Origin: Rosa chinensis
Taxonomy: Eukaryota; Streptophyta; Magnoliopsida; Rosales; Rosaceae
DNA: 64,000 bases
Assembly: GCF_002994745.2 (NCBI RefSeq)
Contig: NC_037092.1
Location: 72,639,823-72,703,822 of the forward strand
Reading direction: 5' to 3'
This document shows positions 12,718 to 55,658 of this stretch, one piece after another. Made by a program: the position numbers and the translations under genes. Each line of letters opens with the position of its first letter. Position 1 is the first letter of the stretch. The notes beneath the pieces are model-generated. The model was not told where the DNA came from. It was given only the letters and a program-made list of their open reading frames with translations, and made no database searches.

Positions 12718-14790
<2,073 letters not shown>

Positions 14791-23782: not shown

Positions 23783-24903
23783 TAGGGCTGGGTTCGGTTC
23801 GGTACCGAAGCTTACTGGCCGATACCATGTACCGTACCAACTTTTACTGGTATGCAAAAAACTATACCACTACCGGCCACAAAATCCGATATACCGAGAA
23901 GTCGGTATACCGATTTAATCGGTCGGTTCGGTACGGTTGGGCTTGTAACCAAGTTTGACATTGGGCCACAAACCAGTCACCAGTACATCACCGATCCCTT
24001 CTTCTTCTGTTTTCTCCTTCTGAGAACTTTTCGACCCACATGGTTATGGATCTCTCCGGTCTCCATACCACACACAGTGATGGAAGAGTGATTGTGGTGA
24101 AGCAAGAAGCAACCTCGGATCTGCAACCTCTGCTAAAATCAAACAGAAGTTTCAGACTTTATTCAACACCAACTACACCCAAAACCAGATTTTTCTTCCC
24201 AGTAAAGAAAATCAACATAAGCAAGAAAAGAAACTTACTTGAAGTAAAAGAGAGATCCAAGGCCGAGTTTGATTCAGATTCTGGGAAGAGAGCAGAGAGA
24301 AGAACTTTACAGGTTGCTATTTTTCAAGAAGAAGAAGAGAGACAGAAGAGACGGGGAAAGAAAGAAGAAGAAGTAAGAAGTAAGAAGTAAGAAGTAAGAA
24401 GAAAGAAGAAAGAAGAAAGAGAAGAGAGAAGAATAAAAAAGAAGAAAGAGAAGAGAGAATTTTTCAAGAAGAAGAAGAGAGACAGAAGAGACGGGGAAAG
24501 AAAGAAGAAGAAGTAAGAAGAAAGAAGAAAAAAGAAAGAGAAGAGAGAAGAATAAAAAAGAAGAAACAGAAGAGAGAAGAATAAAAAAATAAAAAGGAGA
24601 CAAGAAGAGACAGAAAGAGATGGCAAAAGAAAGAAAAAGAAGAAAGAAGAAAGAGAAGAGTGAAGACGTCAGAAAGAAGAGAAGAATAAAATATTAAAAA
24701 AATATGAGTATTATACATAAGTTCGGTACGGTACGGTATACCATGTATATATGAAAATCAAAACCACTACCGTACCGTGTATGTGGAGTCGGTACGGTTG
24801 TACCGTACCAAGACTTCGGTTACCGACTTTTCGGCTACCAATTCACTTGGCTCGGCTCGGATGCGGTTGGTACGGTTTGGTTCGGGAGAATTTGCCAGCC
24901 CTA
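23783..24903. mobile_element. hAT-like non-autonomous element in Copia-1 gag
   Basis: The ends TAGGGCTGG and CCAGCCCTA are flanked by the 8-bp duplication GGTAATAT (23775-23782 and 24904-24911). Removing 1129 bp would rejoin gag in frame at ILP/IIQAP. The subterminal regions are packed with GGTACGGT / TACCG motifs, typical of hAT binding regions. The middle is a long purine array. No transposase is encoded. Confidence 0.9.
24330..24700. repeat. GAAGAA/GAAAGA polypurine array
   Basis: About 370 bp is almost purely purine on the plus strand. A 24333-24390 block (from 'gaagaagaagagagacagaag' on) is repeated at 24465-24520, showing local duplication. The serine/phenylalanine-rich minus-strand frames across it are artefacts of the composition. 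Confidence 0.9.
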
Positions 24904-27473: not shown

Positions 27474-27635
27474 CGTCACCGAACTTGTCGGGGTCGCATC
27501 CGCCAACTGAAGGTGACGGGTTCGTTACCGTCAACTGAACTTGACCAATGACCAGGTCGCCGAACTTGTCGGGGTCGCATCCGCCAACTGAAGGTGACGG
27601 GTTCATCACCGTCAATTGAACTTGACGTGGTCGTC
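27474..27635 (+). repeat. ~80-bp tandem duplication
   Basis: A block starting 'cgaacttgtcggggtcgc' at about 27480 recurs at about 27560 with the same following sequence (ccgccaactgaaggtgacgg, then a gtcaa-tgaacttgac segment). Two near-identical units; a third partial unit flanks each side. Confidence 0.9.
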
Positions 27636-37909: not shown

Positions 37910-37914
37910 TAACT

Positions 37915-38390
37915 TGTTAGAACCATATACATGCTCACAACATATGCACACAATCATAAAAGGGATTAAGGCTTACCTTCAGCAATCACTGGCATGGATT
38001 CCATCTTATGCAGCTGCAAACACAATCACTGAATATGGTCTTCTGTTACTTACCAACTTGCTTCTCAATGGACAGAACAATATGCAAAACGTCGGTAGTA
38101 ATCAGGGACCAATTCATCTGTATATATAGGAGACTTAACCCTCAAGAAGCTTCCCATTAAAGCTATCCATATCGGTTTAGGTTTCCTAGTTAGATTCTTA
38201 ATGTAACACTTCATTGTAGTCTTTCTTGCAGACTAAGAATAGGATTACTTACCTTAATGAATAGATACACTGCTTCATTAAGTTACAAGTATTGATTTAC
38301 AGTTTGTATCCATGTTAAACTAGGATTGATATTAAGCTAATCATCAATTACTTTATGATGATATGTGTTATGTCCATATTTGATCTTACA
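37915..38390 (-). repeat. Copia-2 3' LTR
   Basis: 476 bp, TG...CA. A TATA-like CTATATATA lies on the minus strand near 38119-38127. Confidence 0.95.
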
Positions 38391-39007
38391 ATCTCCCCCT
38401 TGGACTTACACATATCATGCTCGATGATTTGCACCAGAGAACATCAAAACCTACTTAACTTACTGAAGTGCGCGCCAGATAACAAACTCAAATCGAAAAT
38501 CCATTCCAACATGGTCAGATCACAGTTACTTATGCAGAGCAAGAAACAGTATACATTTTAACAAAAATGCAGAGTTTCAAAACCACAAACATAAGCTCCT
38601 GCAATCCACATATGTCAAACCAGAAGTGATACAATATATGTTAATGTGTATCAACAAGTAAACATATATTAGGTCCTACTTTATGTTTCTAAAACCAGAA
38701 ACTCAAGCAAATTTACTGAACACTGATGGCTTAAAATTATTGCTTGAACCTCAACATCATGCTATACATGATTTAAGTCATCTGATAGCAAGCATGATAT
38801 TCAAAACAAGATGATAATTTCCAAAACAAAACAATAAAGCTGCAGCAAAATCATATTTGGAAATACCTCGAAATTTTATTGATAATAATAAACTGCCATT
38901 ACAAATAAGTTGTGATAAACAAAAGTCAAAAATATCACAACTGAAAATACAAGAACTCAAGAACCTTAAAATTTTAAATTGCTCCAATTGGACTAACTCT
39001 ACTGAAC

Positions 39008-40710
39008 CTAAGCATCTAGATTAGCTAAAACTCCAATGCTTGTTGTATGCTTCTGGAATGCTGCTACTGACAAGGCCTTGGTGAAAGGATCTGCTAGCTG
39101 TGAATTTGTGTCAATACTCAAAACAGCTATTTCACCATGCTTTACTCTTTCTCTAACACTGTAATACTTTAGATCAATGTGTTTAGAATTATTTGATCTT
39201 TTACTGTTCTTGCTAAAGAAAACTGCAGCCTCATTGTCACAATAAATCACAAGTGTTCCAGCCACAATGTGACTCAATACTTTGGTTTGCAAGAGAAAAT
39301 TCCTAATCCAAAGTCCTTCATACACAGTTTCATATACTGCAATAAATTCGGCTTGCATAGTAGAAGTTGAAACAAGAGTTTGCTTCATGGTTTTCCAAGC
39401 AATAGCACCTCCTGCAAGCATGAATACATATCCACAAGTCGACTTCTTGGAGTCTGGATAATTTCCTGCAAAATCCGAGTCTGAGAATCCAATGAGTTTC
39501 AGGTCCTCCACTTGCCTATAAACTAGCATGTGGTTTTTAGTTCTCTGCAGGTATCTCAACACTTTCTTCCCAGCTACCCAATGTTCATGGCCTGGATTAG
39601 ATTGGAATCTTGACAAAATCCCTACTGCAAAAGACAAATCCGGCCTAGTGCAGACTTGTGCATACATGAGACTTCCTACAAGTCTGGCATAAGGCTTTGA
39701 CTCCATATTTTCTTTCTCAACATCACTATTGGGACTTTGCTTCTTGGTTAACTTATCTCCTTTGGACATGGGAACTTCTCCAGCTGCACACTTCTCCATA
39801 CCAAATCTCTTTAAAATTTTGGTAACATAATTCTGTTGAGACAAACCAAGTAGTCTCTGTGCTCTATCTCTTTTAATTTCAATGCCTAGTACATAGGATG
39901 CTTCTCCTAAGTCTTTCATGTCAAAATTCTTTGACAGAAAACTCTTGGTATCTTTAAGCAGTTTAATGTTACTGCTAGCCAAAAGTATATCATCTACATA
40001 GAGTACCAGAAAAATAAAATTGTTCCCAACTGTCTTCAAATAAACACATTCATCAACAAGATTTTCTGTAAATCCAAAAGTAGAAATCACAGAATCAAAT
40101 TTCTTGTACCACTGTCTAGAAGCTTGTTTAAGGCCATAAATTGATTTTCTTAACTTACACACTAAGTTTTCACTTCCAGCTTGTACAAACCCTTCTGGCT
40201 GCCTCATATAAATCACTTCATCTAGTTCACCATTTAAGAAAGCTGTTTTAACATCCATCTGGTGCAGCTCCATATCAAAATGAGCCACTAAAGCCATGAT
40301 TATCCTAAACGAGTCTTTTGTAGAAACTGGAGAAAAAGTCTCAGTAAAATCAATGCCCTCCTTCTGTGTAAAACCTTTGGCAACTAATCTTGCTTTATGT
40401 CTCTCTACATTGCCATTTGCATCTCTTTTGGTTTTGAAAACCCATTTACAACCTATAGGCTTCTGGTTGGGGTCAGGTTCAACTAATTCTCAAACTGCAT
40501 TTTGATTCATGGAATTAATTTCTGCTTCCATTGCTTGCTGCCATTGATGAGATTCACTACTTTCAATGGCCTGATTAAATGTAGTTGGATCATTGTCCTC
40601 TGCACAATCCATTTCAATTTCTGCTTCTTGTAGATAAACAATGGAGTCACTCTCTTCCCCCCCCCATAAGTTGGTTTTCTTGCTCTCTGTGATCTTCTAG
40701 GCAGAGCCAC
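39008..40710 (-). pseudogene. Copia-2 reverse transcriptase and RNase H, with one stop and one frameshift
   Basis: The frame 39008-40489 encodes most of RT and RNase H. It includes MDVKTAFLNGELDEVIYM, YGLKQASRQWY, the catalytic YVDDILLA (residues 100-107 counted from Met 40297) and RNase H motifs (SDSDFAG, TMQAEF, YCDNEAAV, HIDLKYY, LADPFTKAL). It ends near 39008, about 600 bp before the 3' LTR. An in-frame TGA at 40490-40492 replaces an expected Trp codon. Further upstream a C9 run (40657-40665) shifts the frame so that the linker RRSQRARKPTYGG is out of phase with RT. The RT core itself is intact. Confidence 0.9.
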
Positions 40711-40727
40711 TGGAGGATTTTGAGGTT

Positions 40728-41035
40728 CAGTTACGTGGCCAGTTACTTGACCAGGTACAGTTACTTGGTCAGTTACATGGGCAGTGACTTGACCAGGTAC
40801 AGTTACTTGGTCAGTGACATGGTCAGTGACATGGGCAGTGACATGGGCAGTGACTTGACCAGGTACAGTTACTTGGTCAGTGACATGGTCAGTTACATGG
40901 TCAGTGACATGGGCAGTGACTTGACCAGTTACTCGACCAGATATAGTGACTTGGTCAGTGACATGGTCAGTTACTTAATAAGGGACAGGTACTTGGTCAG
41001 TTACATGACCAGTGACATGATCAGTTACATCTTGT
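40728..41035 (-). repeat. Copia-2 repeat block 1, in the integrase-RT linker
   Basis: About 300 bp of degenerate 12-bp units (GTNACxTGGxCA) encode, on the minus strand, a run of V-T-[D/G/A]-[H/Q] tetrapeptides interrupted by VPGQ. It lies between the end of integrase and the RRSQRARKP linker motif, in the same frame as integrase. A TAA (40975-40977) cuts the frame within the block. Confidence 0.95.
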
Positions 41036-43335
41036 TCTAAAGGCAATGCTACACTTATATTCTCATCTGACACAATTTCCTCAAAATCTGAGGTTAAATC
41101 CTCAAAATTTGTATTGTGAACTTTTTCACTTAGAAACCTTACTTGATGTGTTTCAAAAATTCTAGGTGAATGATGAGCAGAATATAATTTATAGCCTTTA
41201 GATTTATCTGGGTAACCTATAAAATAGCAACTAACAGTTTTGGGGTCAAGTTTATTCAAGCCTGGATTATAAATCCTAGCTTCTGCATGACATCCCCAAA
41301 CATGACAGTGATGAAGACTAGGTTTTCTGCCACACCAAAGCTCAAAAGCAGTATTTTCTATGGCTTTGCTAGGTGTCCTATTGCAAATATAATTTGCAGT
41401 TTTTAAAGCCTCACCCCACAGAAATTTAGGCAAACCCGTCGTACACATCATGCATCTAACCATGTTCAAAAGAGTCCTATTCTTTCTCTCTGCAACACCA
41501 TTCTGTTGTGGATTATAGGGTGTTGTGTATTGAGCTTTAATTCCATTGTCTTGCAAAAACAAGGCAAATGGACCCTTTTGTTGGCCGGATTCAGTGTACT
41601 TTCCATAGAACTCTCCCCCTCTATCTGACCTCACTGTTTTGATTTTCTTTTCTAGTTGATTTTCTACCTCAGACTTAAAGATTTGAAAGGCTTTCAATGC
41701 TTGTGCCTTTTCTGAAAGTAGATAAATATAACTGTATCTAGAAAAGTCATCAATGAATGTGATAAAATACACATTCCCACAGATAGTTTGATGCCTAAAT
41801 GGTCCACATATATCAGTGTGTATGAGTTCTAATAAATTTTGGCTTCTATATGCAGTTTCCTTTCTTGTGTTGGTTATTTTTCCTTTAAAACATTCCACAC
41901 AATCTGTTAGATCAGAAAAATCAAGTTCATTTAGGATTTTGTTTTTCACCAATATTTTCAGTCTCTCTTTTGAAACATGGCCGAGTCTTCTATGCCATAA
42001 AAATGCAGACTTTTCATTTAGCTTGGTTCTCTTAACACCTGTTAAAGTGCTAGTACTGTTTGTGTTATCTTCAACAAGTAAAATTTCTTGTTGAGCCATT
42101 GAACAACTTAACTTTAAATAATCATTCGAGATAACACCAGAACCAATTTGAACAGAATTTTTAGAAATAAGAATTCCATTACTATCAATAACAAGTCTAC
42201 AACCAGATTTTACTAAAAGAGAAACTGAAACCAAATTCCTTCTCATGGAAGGTACATAAAAAACATTGTCCAAAACTAACAATTTTCCTAATCCTAAATC
42301 GAGCTTTAAGGTTCCAATAGCCTTGACTGCCACTCTCATGCCATTGCCTACACACAAGTTCACTTCATCACTTTTTGGGATTCTCCTCCTTATGAATCCC
42401 TGCAAAGAATTAGTAATATGAATAGGTGAGCCTGAATCTATCCACCAAGACTGTGGTTCAACATTTATAAGATTAATTTCTAAAGAAAAAACTGTATTAG
42501 AAAAAATCTTACCCTTTTTGGCTAACCAATTTTTATAGCCAGTGCAGTCCTTTTTCATGTGTCCTACTCTTTTGCAAAAGTAGCACTTGAACCTAAATGG
42601 CCTATTTTCCTTGGCCACTGCAGCTGTTGAACTCTTAGTTATGGCTTTGATAGGCTTGAGCTTATTTTGGGGCTTTTTCCTTTTAGGCTTCTCAATGAGG
42701 TTAATGGTTGTAGCAGGTTCCTTTTCTTCCTTGATCCTAGATTCTTCATCCACACAGATGGATATAAGTTCATCTAGAGTCCAGTTTCCCTTTTGAGAGT
42801 TGTAACTGGTCCTAAGATGACTAAAACTGTTAGGCAAGGAATGTAGCGCATAATGCACTACCTGCTCATCCCTAACCCCCATCAAGAGCTCCCTGAGTCT
42901 GCCATTTATATTGATCATCTTCATAATATGCTCTCTAACTCCCCCTGAACCCATGTACTTCAAATCATGAAACTCATTGGTTAGCCTAGCAGCTTCTGCC
43001 TTTTCACTTTCTTTAAACTTAGCACCTATGAGTTCCAAAAAATCTGATGCTAGCTCAGGTTCTTCTATACTTCCTCTGACAGTCTTGGACATAGAGGTAC
43101 GAATGAGGTTCTTAGCCATTCTATTGGATCTATGCCACTTCTTATAAAGATCAGTTTCCTTCTTAGTGCTCTTTTCAGTTAACTCTGCAGGTTTGTCCTC
43201 AGTGAAGCAATAGTCTATGTTCTCATGCATTCCCATATAGTTCTCTACCGAATCTAGCCAAGCTCTATAGTTGGTTCCAGTTAGCATCAAGACACTGTTC
43301 AAGTTCATGTAAGAGTTACCTAAGGAGCAAAACAA
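40975..43335 (-). CDS. Copia-2 gag-protease-integrase polyprotein
   Basis: A 786-codon frame. Gag occupies residues ~10-290 (LTGTNYRAWLDSVENYM; zinc knuckle CYFCKRVGHMKKDC at 251-264). Protease has the active-site DSG at 300-302 (WWIDSGSPIHIT). Integrase has the HHCC zinc domain (LWHRRLGH from ~446, C479 and C482) and core catalytic residues D508 (HTDICGP), D571 (SDRGGEF) and E616 (GVAERKNR). The likely true start is Met10 (43308) rather than the first Met. The C-terminus ends inside repeat block 1 (...VTDHVTGHVTDQVPVPY) at a TAA, cutting it off from RT. Expression would start at the 5' LTR at 44624-45095. Confidence 0.95.
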   Translation of the reverse strand: MFCSLGNSYMNLNSVLMLTGTNYRAWLDSVENYMGMHENIDYCFTEDKPAELTEKSTKKETDLYKKWHRSNRMAKNLIRTSMSKTVRGSIEEPELASDFLELIGAKFKESEKAEAARLTNEFHDLKYMGSGGVREHIMKMININGRLRELLMGVRDEQVVHYALHSLPNSFSHLRTSYNSQKGNWTLDELISICVDEESRIKEEKEPATTINLIEKPKRKKPQNKLKPIKAITKSSTAAVAKENRPFRFKCYFCKRVGHMKKDCTGYKNWLAKKGKIFSNTVFSLEINLINVEPQSWWIDSGSPIHITNSLQGFIRRRIPKSDEVNLCVGNGMRVAVKAIGTLKLDLGLGKLLVLDNVFYVPSMRRNLVSVSLLVKSGCRLVIDSNGILISKNSVQIGSGVISNDYLKLSCSMAQQEILLVEDNTNSTSTLTGVKRTKLNEKSAFLWHRRLGHVSKERLKILVKNKILNELDFSDLTDCVECFKGKITNTRKETAYRSQNLLELIHTDICGPFRHQTICGNVYFITFIDDFSRYSYIYLLSEKAQALKAFQIFKSEVENQLEKKIKTVRSDRGGEFYGKYTESGQQKGPFALFLQDNGIKAQYTTPYNPQQNGVAERKNRTLLNMVRCMMCTTGLPKFLWGEALKTANYICNRTPSKAIENTAFELWCGRKPSLHHCHVWGCHAEARIYNPGLNKLDPKTVSCYFIGYPDKSKGYKLYSAHHSPRIFETHQVRFLSEKVHNTNFEDLTSDFEEIVSDENISVALPLEQDVTDHVTGHVTDQVPVPY

Positions 43336-43734
43336 AAATTCGTGTGAGTTCTCAATTTGTAAAGAAAATAACTTTAAGTTTTCTGTGTTTTATTTAGCTT
43401 TAAGCAACCAAAACAAGAACATACAGAAAACCTGAACAATCCATACTTGCATTCATATCAGTCCATAACCAAAAATAATGTTAAGCAACACTTTTGAGCA
43501 GAAGCATAACATCCTGGAGTTCTTTATCAATATACCATGTTCAATGAAAACAAGTTATCCAAAGAAATTTATCCACATCTTTAGACAGAAGAAAAATTTC
43601 TAAGTATCCGTATTTATTTTCATCAAGCACGCATATTGCTGTTTTGTATTCTAAAACCATACTTGATCACTTCTTTGGAAGATAAAACTGAAGCATAGTT
43701 TTAAAACACAAAACACAATTTCAGTTTTGTTACT

Positions 43735-43912
43735 CGATCAGTTACGTGGTCAGTGACCTGACCAGTTACGTGGTCAGTGACCTGACCAGTTACGTGGTCA
43801 GTGACCTGACCAGTTACGTGGTCAGTGACCTGACCAGTTACGTGGTCAGTGACCTGACCAGTTACATGGTCAGTGACATGACCAGTTACATGGTCAGTGA
43901 CCTGATCATTGT
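43735..43912 (-). repeat. Copia-2 repeat block 2, in the leader upstream of gag
   Basis: Seven or so near-identical 24-bp units (GTCAGTGACCTGACCAGTTA plus CGTG) lie 400 bp upstream of gag. On the minus strand they too can be read as V-T-D-H-V-T-G-Q. Each unit contains the inverted pair CTGACCA...TGGTCAG, which could fold as a 7-bp stem. Confidence 0.95.
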
Positions 43913-44430
43913 TTTCTGCCAACATCAATGAAGAATGCTTTGTGCATCATAATCACTTATGCCAACAGAAAACCACAAAACTCATGAGCTTTTAACTTTA
44001 TATTCTACCCAGATTCATCCTTGTAAGAAAATTAAGCTCTCGTATCTGTCAATTTTAATTGTGTAAACAAATTCTGGGAGATTTTTGTTCTTCATGCAAT
44101 TTTACACAATCACAGATACAATACCATATCATCAATCAATTCATCATGCATATTCAAGCACAATCAAAATTGTTTCGATTCCAAGAAACCACAGAACAAT
44201 CAAGAAATTGTAAATTTCATCCGGTCACCATCTACTCTAACCTAACGCACGCTGGGAATGCAACTAGTGTTCTTGAGCACAATCAAAATTCAATTATCAT
44301 GCTATGAATCGAAATCAATTTCCATAGAAAAACCTGTTTTTGCTTTTTCCCCAATTTGCTGCTAAAATCACAGCGGAAGCGTGAATTTGATAATTAACCA
44401 GATGCAGCAATCGACTTATGTAACTTACTT

Positions 44431-44511
44431 TGATCAGGTACATGACCAGTGACATGGTCAGTTACCTGATCAGTGACTTGGTCAGTTACCTGACCAGTTA
44501 CTTGATCCGTA
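44431..44511 (-). repeat. Copia-2 repeat block 3, near the primer-binding site
   Basis: About six 12-bp units of the same repeat lie within 200 bp of the 5' LTR. They translate on the minus strand as VTGQVTDQVTDQVTDHVTGH. Confidence 0.9.
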
Positions 44512-44609
44512 AAGCAAAAACCCTTTTTTTTTTTTTTTGTGTTTGTTTTGCAAAACCCTAAAACGATCTTGATGCCAAGCAAAAAGTTCATTCATATTTG
44601 TGAGCCTAT

Positions 44610-44621
44610 GCTCTGATACCA
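44610..44621 (-). other. Copia-2 primer-binding site (initiator tRNA-Met)
   Basis: TGGTATCAGAGC on the minus strand, two bases after the 5' LTR end, complements the 3' end of initiator tRNA-Met. Confidence 0.95.
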
Positions 44622-44623
44622 AT

Positions 44624-45095
44624 TGTTAGAACCATATACATGCTCACAACATATGCACACAATCATAAAAGGGATTAAGGCTTACCTTCAGCAATCATTG
44701 GCATGGATTCCATCTTATGCAGCTGCAAACACAATCACTGAATATGGTCTTCTGTTACTTACCAACTTGCTTCTCAATGGACAGAACAATATGCAAAACG
44801 TCGGTAGTAATCAGGGACCAATTCATCTGTATATATAGGAGACTTAACTCTCAAGAAGCTTCCCATTAAAGCTATCCATATCAGTTTAGGTTTCCTAGTT
44901 AGATTCTTAATGTAACACTTCATTGTAGTCTTTCTTGCAGACTAAGAATAGGATTACTTACCTTAATGAATAGATACACTGCTTCATTAAGTTACAAGTA
45001 TTGATTTACAGTTTGTATCCATGTTAAACTAGGATATTAAGCTAATCATCAATTACTTTATGATGATATGTGTTATGTCCATATTTGGTCTTACA
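44624..45095 (-). repeat. Copia-2 5' LTR
   Basis: 472 bp. Its partner is 37915-38390. Confidence 0.95.
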
Positions 45096-45100
45096 TAACT

Positions 45101-49803: not shown

Positions 49804-51071
49804 ACCGCTACGCGGCATTGCAATCAAGCTTTTCTCCTCGGGGAAAGAGTAAAGGGACCGGTTAAAGCAACCTACTGCAGCCATTGATCCTATTGTTAAC
49901 CCCCGACGCTTGGGTATCAAAGATTAGGTTCGCTACCTAACGCCCATTGCTCAAACGCAGCTCCCCTCATCAAACAATTTTTCGACCATATGGAGGTCTG
50001 TAGCCAGGAGTGGGGGACTCCTTAGAGGGCCTAGTAGGGGCCCACCCGAAAGGGCATAAGCGTTCTCTTCGACAAATTCTAGATGGACGACGCACTTACA
50101 CTAATTATACTCGATATATGGCATAAAGCTACGCTTTGATATCAACCCCACAAGAAAGCCCTCTTTGACTAGGGACTTCGGGGACTTGTACATACAGCCC
50201 AGCATAATCAGTAACGGCTACGTTCATGCCTTAGGGCATCACCTTCGAGCTATCCGTTAATGCCTCATGGCATCCCCGAGCTTTTACGCTCAAGCCTTCG
50301 CGGCGATCCTGAGCATTCACGCTCGTGCCTTCGCAGAAATCCCGAGCTTTTACACTCACGCCTTCGCGGCAATCCAAGCTTTCACGCTCACGCCTTTGCG
50401 GCAACCCCGAGCTTCACGATTAAGCCTCCCTGGCATCCTCGAGCTTTCACGCTCTTGCCTTCCAGGCAATCCCGAGCTTCACAATCACGTCTCCTCGGCA
50501 TAATACACATTAATGGAATATTGAATTCTTCTACCATTTGTCGTTTGCAACAAATCGAATTTTTTCGCATTCTATTAATACGAGTAAAAACCAAACAAAC
50601 ACAAGCGTTCGCGTATTCATCATTCACGAATTACAAACGCTTACCTTCATGACACTCATGCAACGTACACCGAGCGTAACCTCATCAACTCGACCTCGTT
50701 CGTTCTCTTGCGAGCACCACGCGCATCATATGCAATTCATATGCTTATTCTTGATATGTTCACACAACCATATGTGTTCTCGAGTTTATATGTCATGATC
50801 GATCATACTCGGCCTCATTCACATATATACATCATAATGTATCACGCACCTCGTACATTCGTATATGCCAATGCATATAAATGCAACTCACGTGCGTTGC
50901 CCAAAACAACAAGCATGCTACGTGCGCATGTTCTTATATTTGTTTTACAGGTTGAAGAGTCCCTTCTTGCTTACTGAGTTCGAGGACTTGTAGGGGTTGG
51001 GAGCCTCCTGGATGTCACTTATGCTTGATAACATCATGTTTAGAACTCCCCAACCAAGAAACTCTTCTTAC
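49804..51071 (+). other. LARD-1 internal non-coding region (3' part)
   Basis: No gag or pol was seen. Motifs of the type 'cttcggggacttgta' occur at about 50176 and again at the LTR border (51080), and a variant 'gttcgaggacttgtagggg' at about 50979, so the purine-tract region is partly repeated. A 33-bp tandem array lies at 50236-50502. Confidence 0.6.
50236..50502 (+). repeat. 33-bp tandem array, about eight units
   Basis: Units have the form GCxATCCxGAGC-TTCACGCTC-GCCTTCGCG with substitutions and one- or two-base length changes. The overlapping small frames come from this periodicity (33 is a multiple of 3). Confidence 0.9.

Positions 51072-53435: not shown

Positions 53436-55658
<2,223 letters not shown>

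Follow-up and report, generated by a model that had tools for sequence, protein, structure and literature searches.

Ty3/gypsy retrotransposons of the Tat/Ogre group carry hypervariable tandem repeats in their 3' untranslated regions (Macas et al. 2009, as cited in an excerpt of PMC7004042). Repeated palindromes are also known from Sireviruses; most have a CGG-CCG core, and they are found upstream of the TATA box in the long terminal repeat (LTR) and, in two elements, near env (sections of PMC2829016, where dyad symmetry is described as a frequent property of transcriptional activators of retrotransposons). We analysed a stretch of 64,000 nucleotides of Rosa chinensis (contig NC_037092.1, positions 72,639,823 to 72,703,822; hereafter the window), which contains a Ty1/copia element with one short repeat at three sites, one translated and two in the leader. 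Unlike the Tat/Ogre arrays, which lie downstream of the coding region of Ty3/gypsy elements, the rose arrays lie in the leader and the pol linker of a copia element and appear to have originated stepwise from its own linker. They resemble the Sirevirus motifs in that both are short palindromes repeated within plant elements of the Ty1/copia type; however, their core is TGRYCA and they are found outside the LTR. Their three-site spread is unusual among retrotransposon-borne tandem repeats. Among titles and abstract openings of the open-licence literature we found no description of a three-site copia repeat or of an intron spanning the primer binding site (PBS), such as we predict below, which is weak evidence of novelty. 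We consider it probable that the blocks are an element-specific minisatellite, which arose from the palindromic stretch GTACCTGATCAGG of the element's own linker, was copied to two leader sites, grew there and was tolerated without any strong function.

The three blocks lie on one strand and share the repeat TGRYCAGTKACN, whose 12-bp unit reads GTMACTGRYCAN in the element's sense. An earlier note on this DNA had proposed that a single 12/24-bp repeat occupies three places of one copia element, and this is borne out by the counts: the window holds 46 matches to the 11-mer core at one mismatch or fewer against 6.3 expected, none of 100 shuffles reached that number, and 40 of the 46 fall inside the three blocks. 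In the genome (515 Mb, seven large contigs), the 23-bp dimer of block 2 has 398 exact copies and its reversed control none. With block 2 as the query, 20 further full-length copies were retrieved, and in all 21 that were read, that of the window included, the three blocks stand at the same sites, in support of the note; their lengths are hypervariable. Within two pairs of copies (L038/L039 and L033/L035) one place seems to be a duplicate of the other, so that the independent insertions number 19; L038 and L039 are near-identical, face opposite ways at a distance of about 40 kb on the 176-kb contig C40, and are probably an inverted duplication or an assembly artefact. The two LTRs of a copy differ by only 0-7 substitutions in about 470, and the copies are therefore young.

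The leader flank outside the blocks matches 274 genome places at one mismatch or fewer; the 100 matches listed are all exact and extend into contig C4. Among these listed matches, 21 of the 34 exact places on contig C1 adjoin an exact block-2 dimer. The remaining 13 were all read, and 12 have units at block 2 (those of L059, zero by the strict pattern, are plain only by eye), so that 33 of the 34 leader copies have the block. In the last, L057, both leader sites are without an array. Four chosen places on C2-C4 (L067-L070) all have units. Conversely, the 24 dimer clusters on C1 all belong to the element family, 21 by their flank and three (L064-L066, which are without it) by inspection. The array-less form of the block-2 site occurs at 20 genome places at two mismatches or fewer, three of them exact, L057 being the one read. 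Members without the blocks had been named in the earlier note as a case against its claim; one older relative (L057, with its linker L075) is such a member, and it marks the blocks as a derived gain rather than refuting their place in the family. No units were found in the leaders (L071-L073) or linkers (L074, P0014) read from the sister families Q and P; P0014 is a Rosa chinensis protein that this genome encodes at 100% identity.

In the array-less relative, the region around the linker between integrase and reverse transcriptase (RT) was read as L075, which is 93% alike to the window over 584 bp of the adjoining integrase; its linker is acidic and, by eye, resembles the linkers of the relatives P0001 and P0007. 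This linker contains GTACCTGATCAGG, which recurs as the core of the earliest arrays in the leader. Indeed, the shortest forms in the leader are built from this core together with the same sequence inverted: block 2 of L059 holds CTGATCAGGTAC and GTACCTGATCAG, and block 1 of L067 is one palindromic insert with the perfect 18-bp palindrome TGATCAGGTACCTGATCA. The array-less linker and block 2 of L059 share 13 of 13 bases, which none of 300 mononucleotide-shuffled linkers equalled, and three other early forms have an 11-base match to this linker, reached by 0, 0 and 1 of 300 shuffles. The array-less leader, for its part, shares at most 8 bases with the early forms. Moreover, L058, L067 and L069 retain beside block 1 an old leader segment of about 250 bp, gone in later copies, and in L058 and L069 it stands together with arrays. 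A series from a single palindromic insert through short arrays to long arrays is thus seen. According to this series, and to the presence of the core in the array-less linker, the repeat was most likely born in the pol linker.

A leader tree of 38 copies, rooted by choice on L057 and drawn without L034, L065 and L066 (which have no anchor), contains a clade of seven (support 0.97), in which block 2 measures 42-108 nt in six copies and is unmeasurable in L067, and a clade of 29 (support 0.90), in which it measures 60-348 nt; L061 falls outside both. In L059, a member of the clade of seven, block 3 is already present, and TGATCA units are abundant in it (L076). We propose that the palindromic stretch of the ancestral linker would have been copied with its inverted image into the two leader sites, with strand transfer in the course of reverse transcription as the likeliest route, and that each site would then have grown and shrunk, in steps of 12/24 bp in blocks 1 and 2 and of 12/18 bp in block 3, while the blocks diverged. 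The shared core and the stepwise series support the claim of the note that a single repeat family spread within the element. Template switching, one of the two causes it had suggested, is the best reading of this series, and one copy, L066, shows two blocks fused (see below); the mechanism itself is inferred.

The blocks have since changed in length and have exchanged few units. Among the 44 pairs of copies within 1% of each other in the leader (a set from which two duplicates and three copies of unmeasurable length were excluded), block 2 is equally long in only 6. The lengths differ by a median of 44 nt, and 24 of the 44 differences, counting the 6 zeros, are multiples of 12. Nineteen unit types occur at least 5 times in 19 copies, and for 13 of these at least 90% of the occurrences fall in a single block, which argues that the blocks evolve apart. 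We therefore rejected degeneracy as a means of dating the blocks, as the earlier note had used it; block 2 is simply the most homogenised of the three. In one copy, L066 (720-1009, sense), block 1 runs continuously into block 2 and the 0.5 kb in between is gone. This recombinant between the two arrays shows that the blocks are able to recombine, and it adds modest support to the origin proposed here.

The element that carries the blocks in the window (Table 1) is a Ty1/copia element by its LTRs ending in TG..CA, its 5-bp target site duplication, the order gag-integrase-RT and a PBS adjoining the 5' LTR. Its two LTRs are 98% identical, and its Pfam domains follow the order PF14223 (gag), zf-CCHC, PF13976, PF00665 (integrase) and PF07727 (RVT_2). 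We take the PBS, TGGTATCAGAGC, to be of the initiator tRNA-Met type. Elsewhere in the window, unrelated tandem arrays are found at 50269-50479, 27474-27633 and 24319-24666 (33/65-bp, 81-bp and AAG-rich), and open reading frames (ORFs) with a Pfam Transferase domain, presumably BAHD-type acyltransferases, flank the repeat-rich stretch on both sides (12718-14121 and 54228-55658).

Table 1. Features of the copia element in the window (window coordinates).
Feature	Position	Strand	Basis or remark
Complete Ty1/copia LTR retrotransposon copy	37915..45095	(-)	LTR alignment and flanks; Pfam domains
Target site duplication TAACT, 5 bp	37910-37914 and 45096-45100		flanks both element ends
5' LTR (element sense)	44624..45095	(-)	469/477 columns identical to other LTR
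3' LTR (element sense)	37915..38390	(-)	LTR alignment
Predicted gag exon 1 in LTR	44686..44713	(-)	MESMPMIAE and first base of next codon; donor, frame
Predicted leader intron, 1366 nt	43320..44685	(-)	in-frame join; holds PBS and blocks 1 and 2
Primer binding site TGGTATCAGAGC	44610..44621 (sense 44621-44610)	(-)	beside 5' LTR
Block 1	44430..44508	(-)	about 6 units; leader
Block 2	43735..43908	(-)	24-bp dimers of TGACCA and TGGTCA units; leader
Predicted gag exon 2 to integrase ORF	40975..43319	(-)	in window copy ends at stop codon inside block 3
Block 3	40735..41028	(-)	integrase-RT linker, translated VT[D/G/A][H/Q]
Reverse transcriptase ORF	39008..40489	(-)	window copy: frame differs from gag-integrase ORF

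Both leader blocks lie within a predicted intron. Plant LTR elements are described as generally without introns in an excerpt of the review PMC12786077, with such exceptions as BARE1 and EVADE, in which splicing within the gag-pol RNA gives a Gag-only RNA (portions of PMC3735527 and PMC12786077); in Ogre, an intron separates the gag-protease from the RT-ribonuclease H-integrase ORFs (cited in an excerpt of PMC6317226). We found no mention of an intron, splicing or a start codon in PMC3059260. In the rose element, judging from sequence, the start of Gag appears to lie in the 5' LTR, and its message to be spliced across an intron of about 1.37 kb. The AUG of MESMPxIAE has no other AUG for about 110 nt upstream in 17 of 20 5' LTRs (L043 skipped), and it is the first AUG if transcription is assumed to start about 30 nt past the TATA-like box. 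The donor GCTGAAG/GTAAG is exact in 19 of 21 5' LTRs (L036 and L048 deviate), the acceptor CTCCTTAG/GTAAC stands directly before gag in 21 of 21 copies, and the joined exons read MESMPxIAEG-NSYxNLNSV in frame in all 19 testable copies; the predicted intron holds 37-46 AUGs (19 copies). One copy each of the sister families has the same layout, with the join MYSFGQTILDGIKSVDAG-LSVVTLGQIQ in Q and MAGQSIDMQNN-VEVVTLGQIQ in P, the acceptor of the latter chosen for frame. In both of these copies, exon 2 reaches its first in-frame Met only after 28-29 residues, and the gag frame is lost when the acceptor is moved by 1 or 2 nt. A Gag start in the LTR with a predicted PBS-spanning intron appears to be common to at least three related copia families here; it was seen on the sense strand of L071 (Q) and L073 (P).

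As in BARE1 and EVADE, splicing of a plant copia RNA is here predicted to give RNAs with different roles; however, the predicted intron spans LTR, PBS and gag, so that the spliced RNA would lack the PBS. As in Ogre, removal of the intron would permit translation of the polyprotein, in an element of another superfamily and with an intron at another place. Several observations count against this intron. Conservation of exon 1 (0.990) is not above that of the best neighbouring LTR bins (0.921-0.991), and was not used as evidence. Moreover, all of the 21 copies have a second donor-like GTAAGT (first base 44428 in the window) directly after block 1; we dropped it as the leader donor because the donor in the LTR agrees with the frame of gag and with the sister families, and kept it as a second possible donor. 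The array-less L057 shows no such GTAAGT at that place. A search of the genome for the spliced junction at two mismatches or fewer gave no copy. This lends no support to splicing, yet it is not strong against it, because the spliced RNA would lack the PBS. In L072, a second copy of family Q, the predicted end of exon 1 is joined to the PBS region just after CAG; this may reflect splicing to a PBS acceptor or a deletion at 3-bp microhomology, which are alike in sequence, and it was not used as evidence. If the intron is as predicted, the blocks would be tolerated, because the leader sites are removed from the mRNA with it and block 3 stands in a linker where multiples of 6 nt keep the frame.

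The leader arrays could instead be a selected RNA structure, serving packaging, dimerisation or intron retention, which would mark the unspliced genomic RNA. Retroviral packaging signals sit downstream of the splice donor, and in the rose element the PBS and blocks 1 and 2, lying in the predicted intron, would be carried by unspliced RNA alone. Moreover, block 2 is strongly self-complementary. When neighbouring units were counted in all 21 copies, duplicates included, against the expectation of random order, complementary neighbours (TGACCA/TGGTCA) made up 218 of 274 in block 2 (111.5 expected), 23 of 50 in block 1 (14.2 expected) and 36 of 228 in block 3 (26.0 expected), and the folding energies per 100 nt were -45.9, -30.3 and -29.4 kcal/mol, respectively. 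The complementarity behind the row of hairpins that the earlier note had proposed is thus found mainly in block 2, partly in block 1 and hardly in block 3, for which we reject such a row. Array-bearing places are also more numerous than array-less ones: the leader flank was counted at 274 places and the array-less site at 20, with two unlike patterns. However, the order of the units is of little weight for folding: relative to 60 unit-order shuffles per copy, the mean z was -0.97 in block 2, 0.09 in block 1 and -0.38 in block 3. The self-complementarity of block 2 is therefore chiefly a matter of composition, and its alternation of units follows also from growth by 24-bp dimers. Block 2 ranges from 42 to 348 nt among copies, the families P and Q have the predicted intron without arrays, and L057 is without arrays. 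Selection for an RNA structure, as suggested in the note, is thus unproven; we estimate it as unlikely and favour a tolerated, self-propagating expansion.

Selection might also have acted on block 3 as a useful VT-repeat linker, with the leader blocks as by-products. Block 3 is indeed translated, as the note had said, and reads VTDH/VTDQ/VTAH/VTVPGQ; the same peptide that it saw in the leader blocks is probably never read, because these lie in the predicted intron. A frame of 1394-1442 amino acids runs through block 3 in 5 of the 20 copies measured (L032 left out), the others being interrupted somewhere, that of the window both by the stop inside block 3 and by the frame change before RT. The length of block 3, measured as far as the conserved stretch that follows, is divisible by 6 in 19 of 21 copies, and unit variation is mostly at third codon positions; however, units of 12 and 18 nt by themselves yield multiples of 6, for which reason we rejected these multiples as proof of coding selection, and the non-coding blocks vary at the same positions. 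The relatives P0001 and P0007 have an unrelated acidic linker, and an informal look at the copies did not clearly reveal purifying selection on the peptide of the repeat. A selected linker is accordingly very unlikely in our view. That the units are regulatory sites at the DNA level, such as transcription factor half-sites downstream of the promoter, would recall the repeated palindromes of Sirevirus LTRs (in the sections of PMC2829016 cited above), but the blocks lie outside the LTR, one of them within a coding region at a distance of 3.7 kb from the TATA-like box, and the unit number varies widely, which makes this highly improbable. We give as slight a chance to a host satellite or other mobile palindrome captured three times: the perfect palindrome inserted at block 1 of L067 would suit such a capture, but 24 of 24 dimer clusters on C1 are within the element family and the core is present in the array-less linker of the element itself.

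Several points weigh against the origin in the linker that we propose. The linker of one array-less element was read, and the direction from linker to leader is drawn from this copy and from outgroup proteins compared by eye; there is a small chance that the palindrome was captured from outside the family. The ranges of block-2 length in the two leader clades overlap, nearly all recent sampled copies keep their arrays, as they would if the arrays were useful, and strand transfer is a step that we infer rather than observe.

If the predicted intron is real, it would provide a simple means to separate the RNAs for translation and for replication. We speculate, as a rather unlikely scenario, that this clade splits RNA roles by splicing out the PBS: Gag-Pol would be made only from PBS-less RNA, the unspliced RNA, with its 37-46 AUGs in the intron, would serve only as genome, and in one lineage self-made palindromic arrays filling that intron would label or fold the genomic RNA and would have helped the lineage to dominate. 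Tandem repeats of retrotransposons are known seeds of satellite DNA, and in our judgement their birth is seldom caught. Here, the array-less state, the first insert and the short and long arrays coexist in one genome, with the repeat unit in both coding and non-coding parts of the element, and models of strand transfer and slippage are therefore directly testable.

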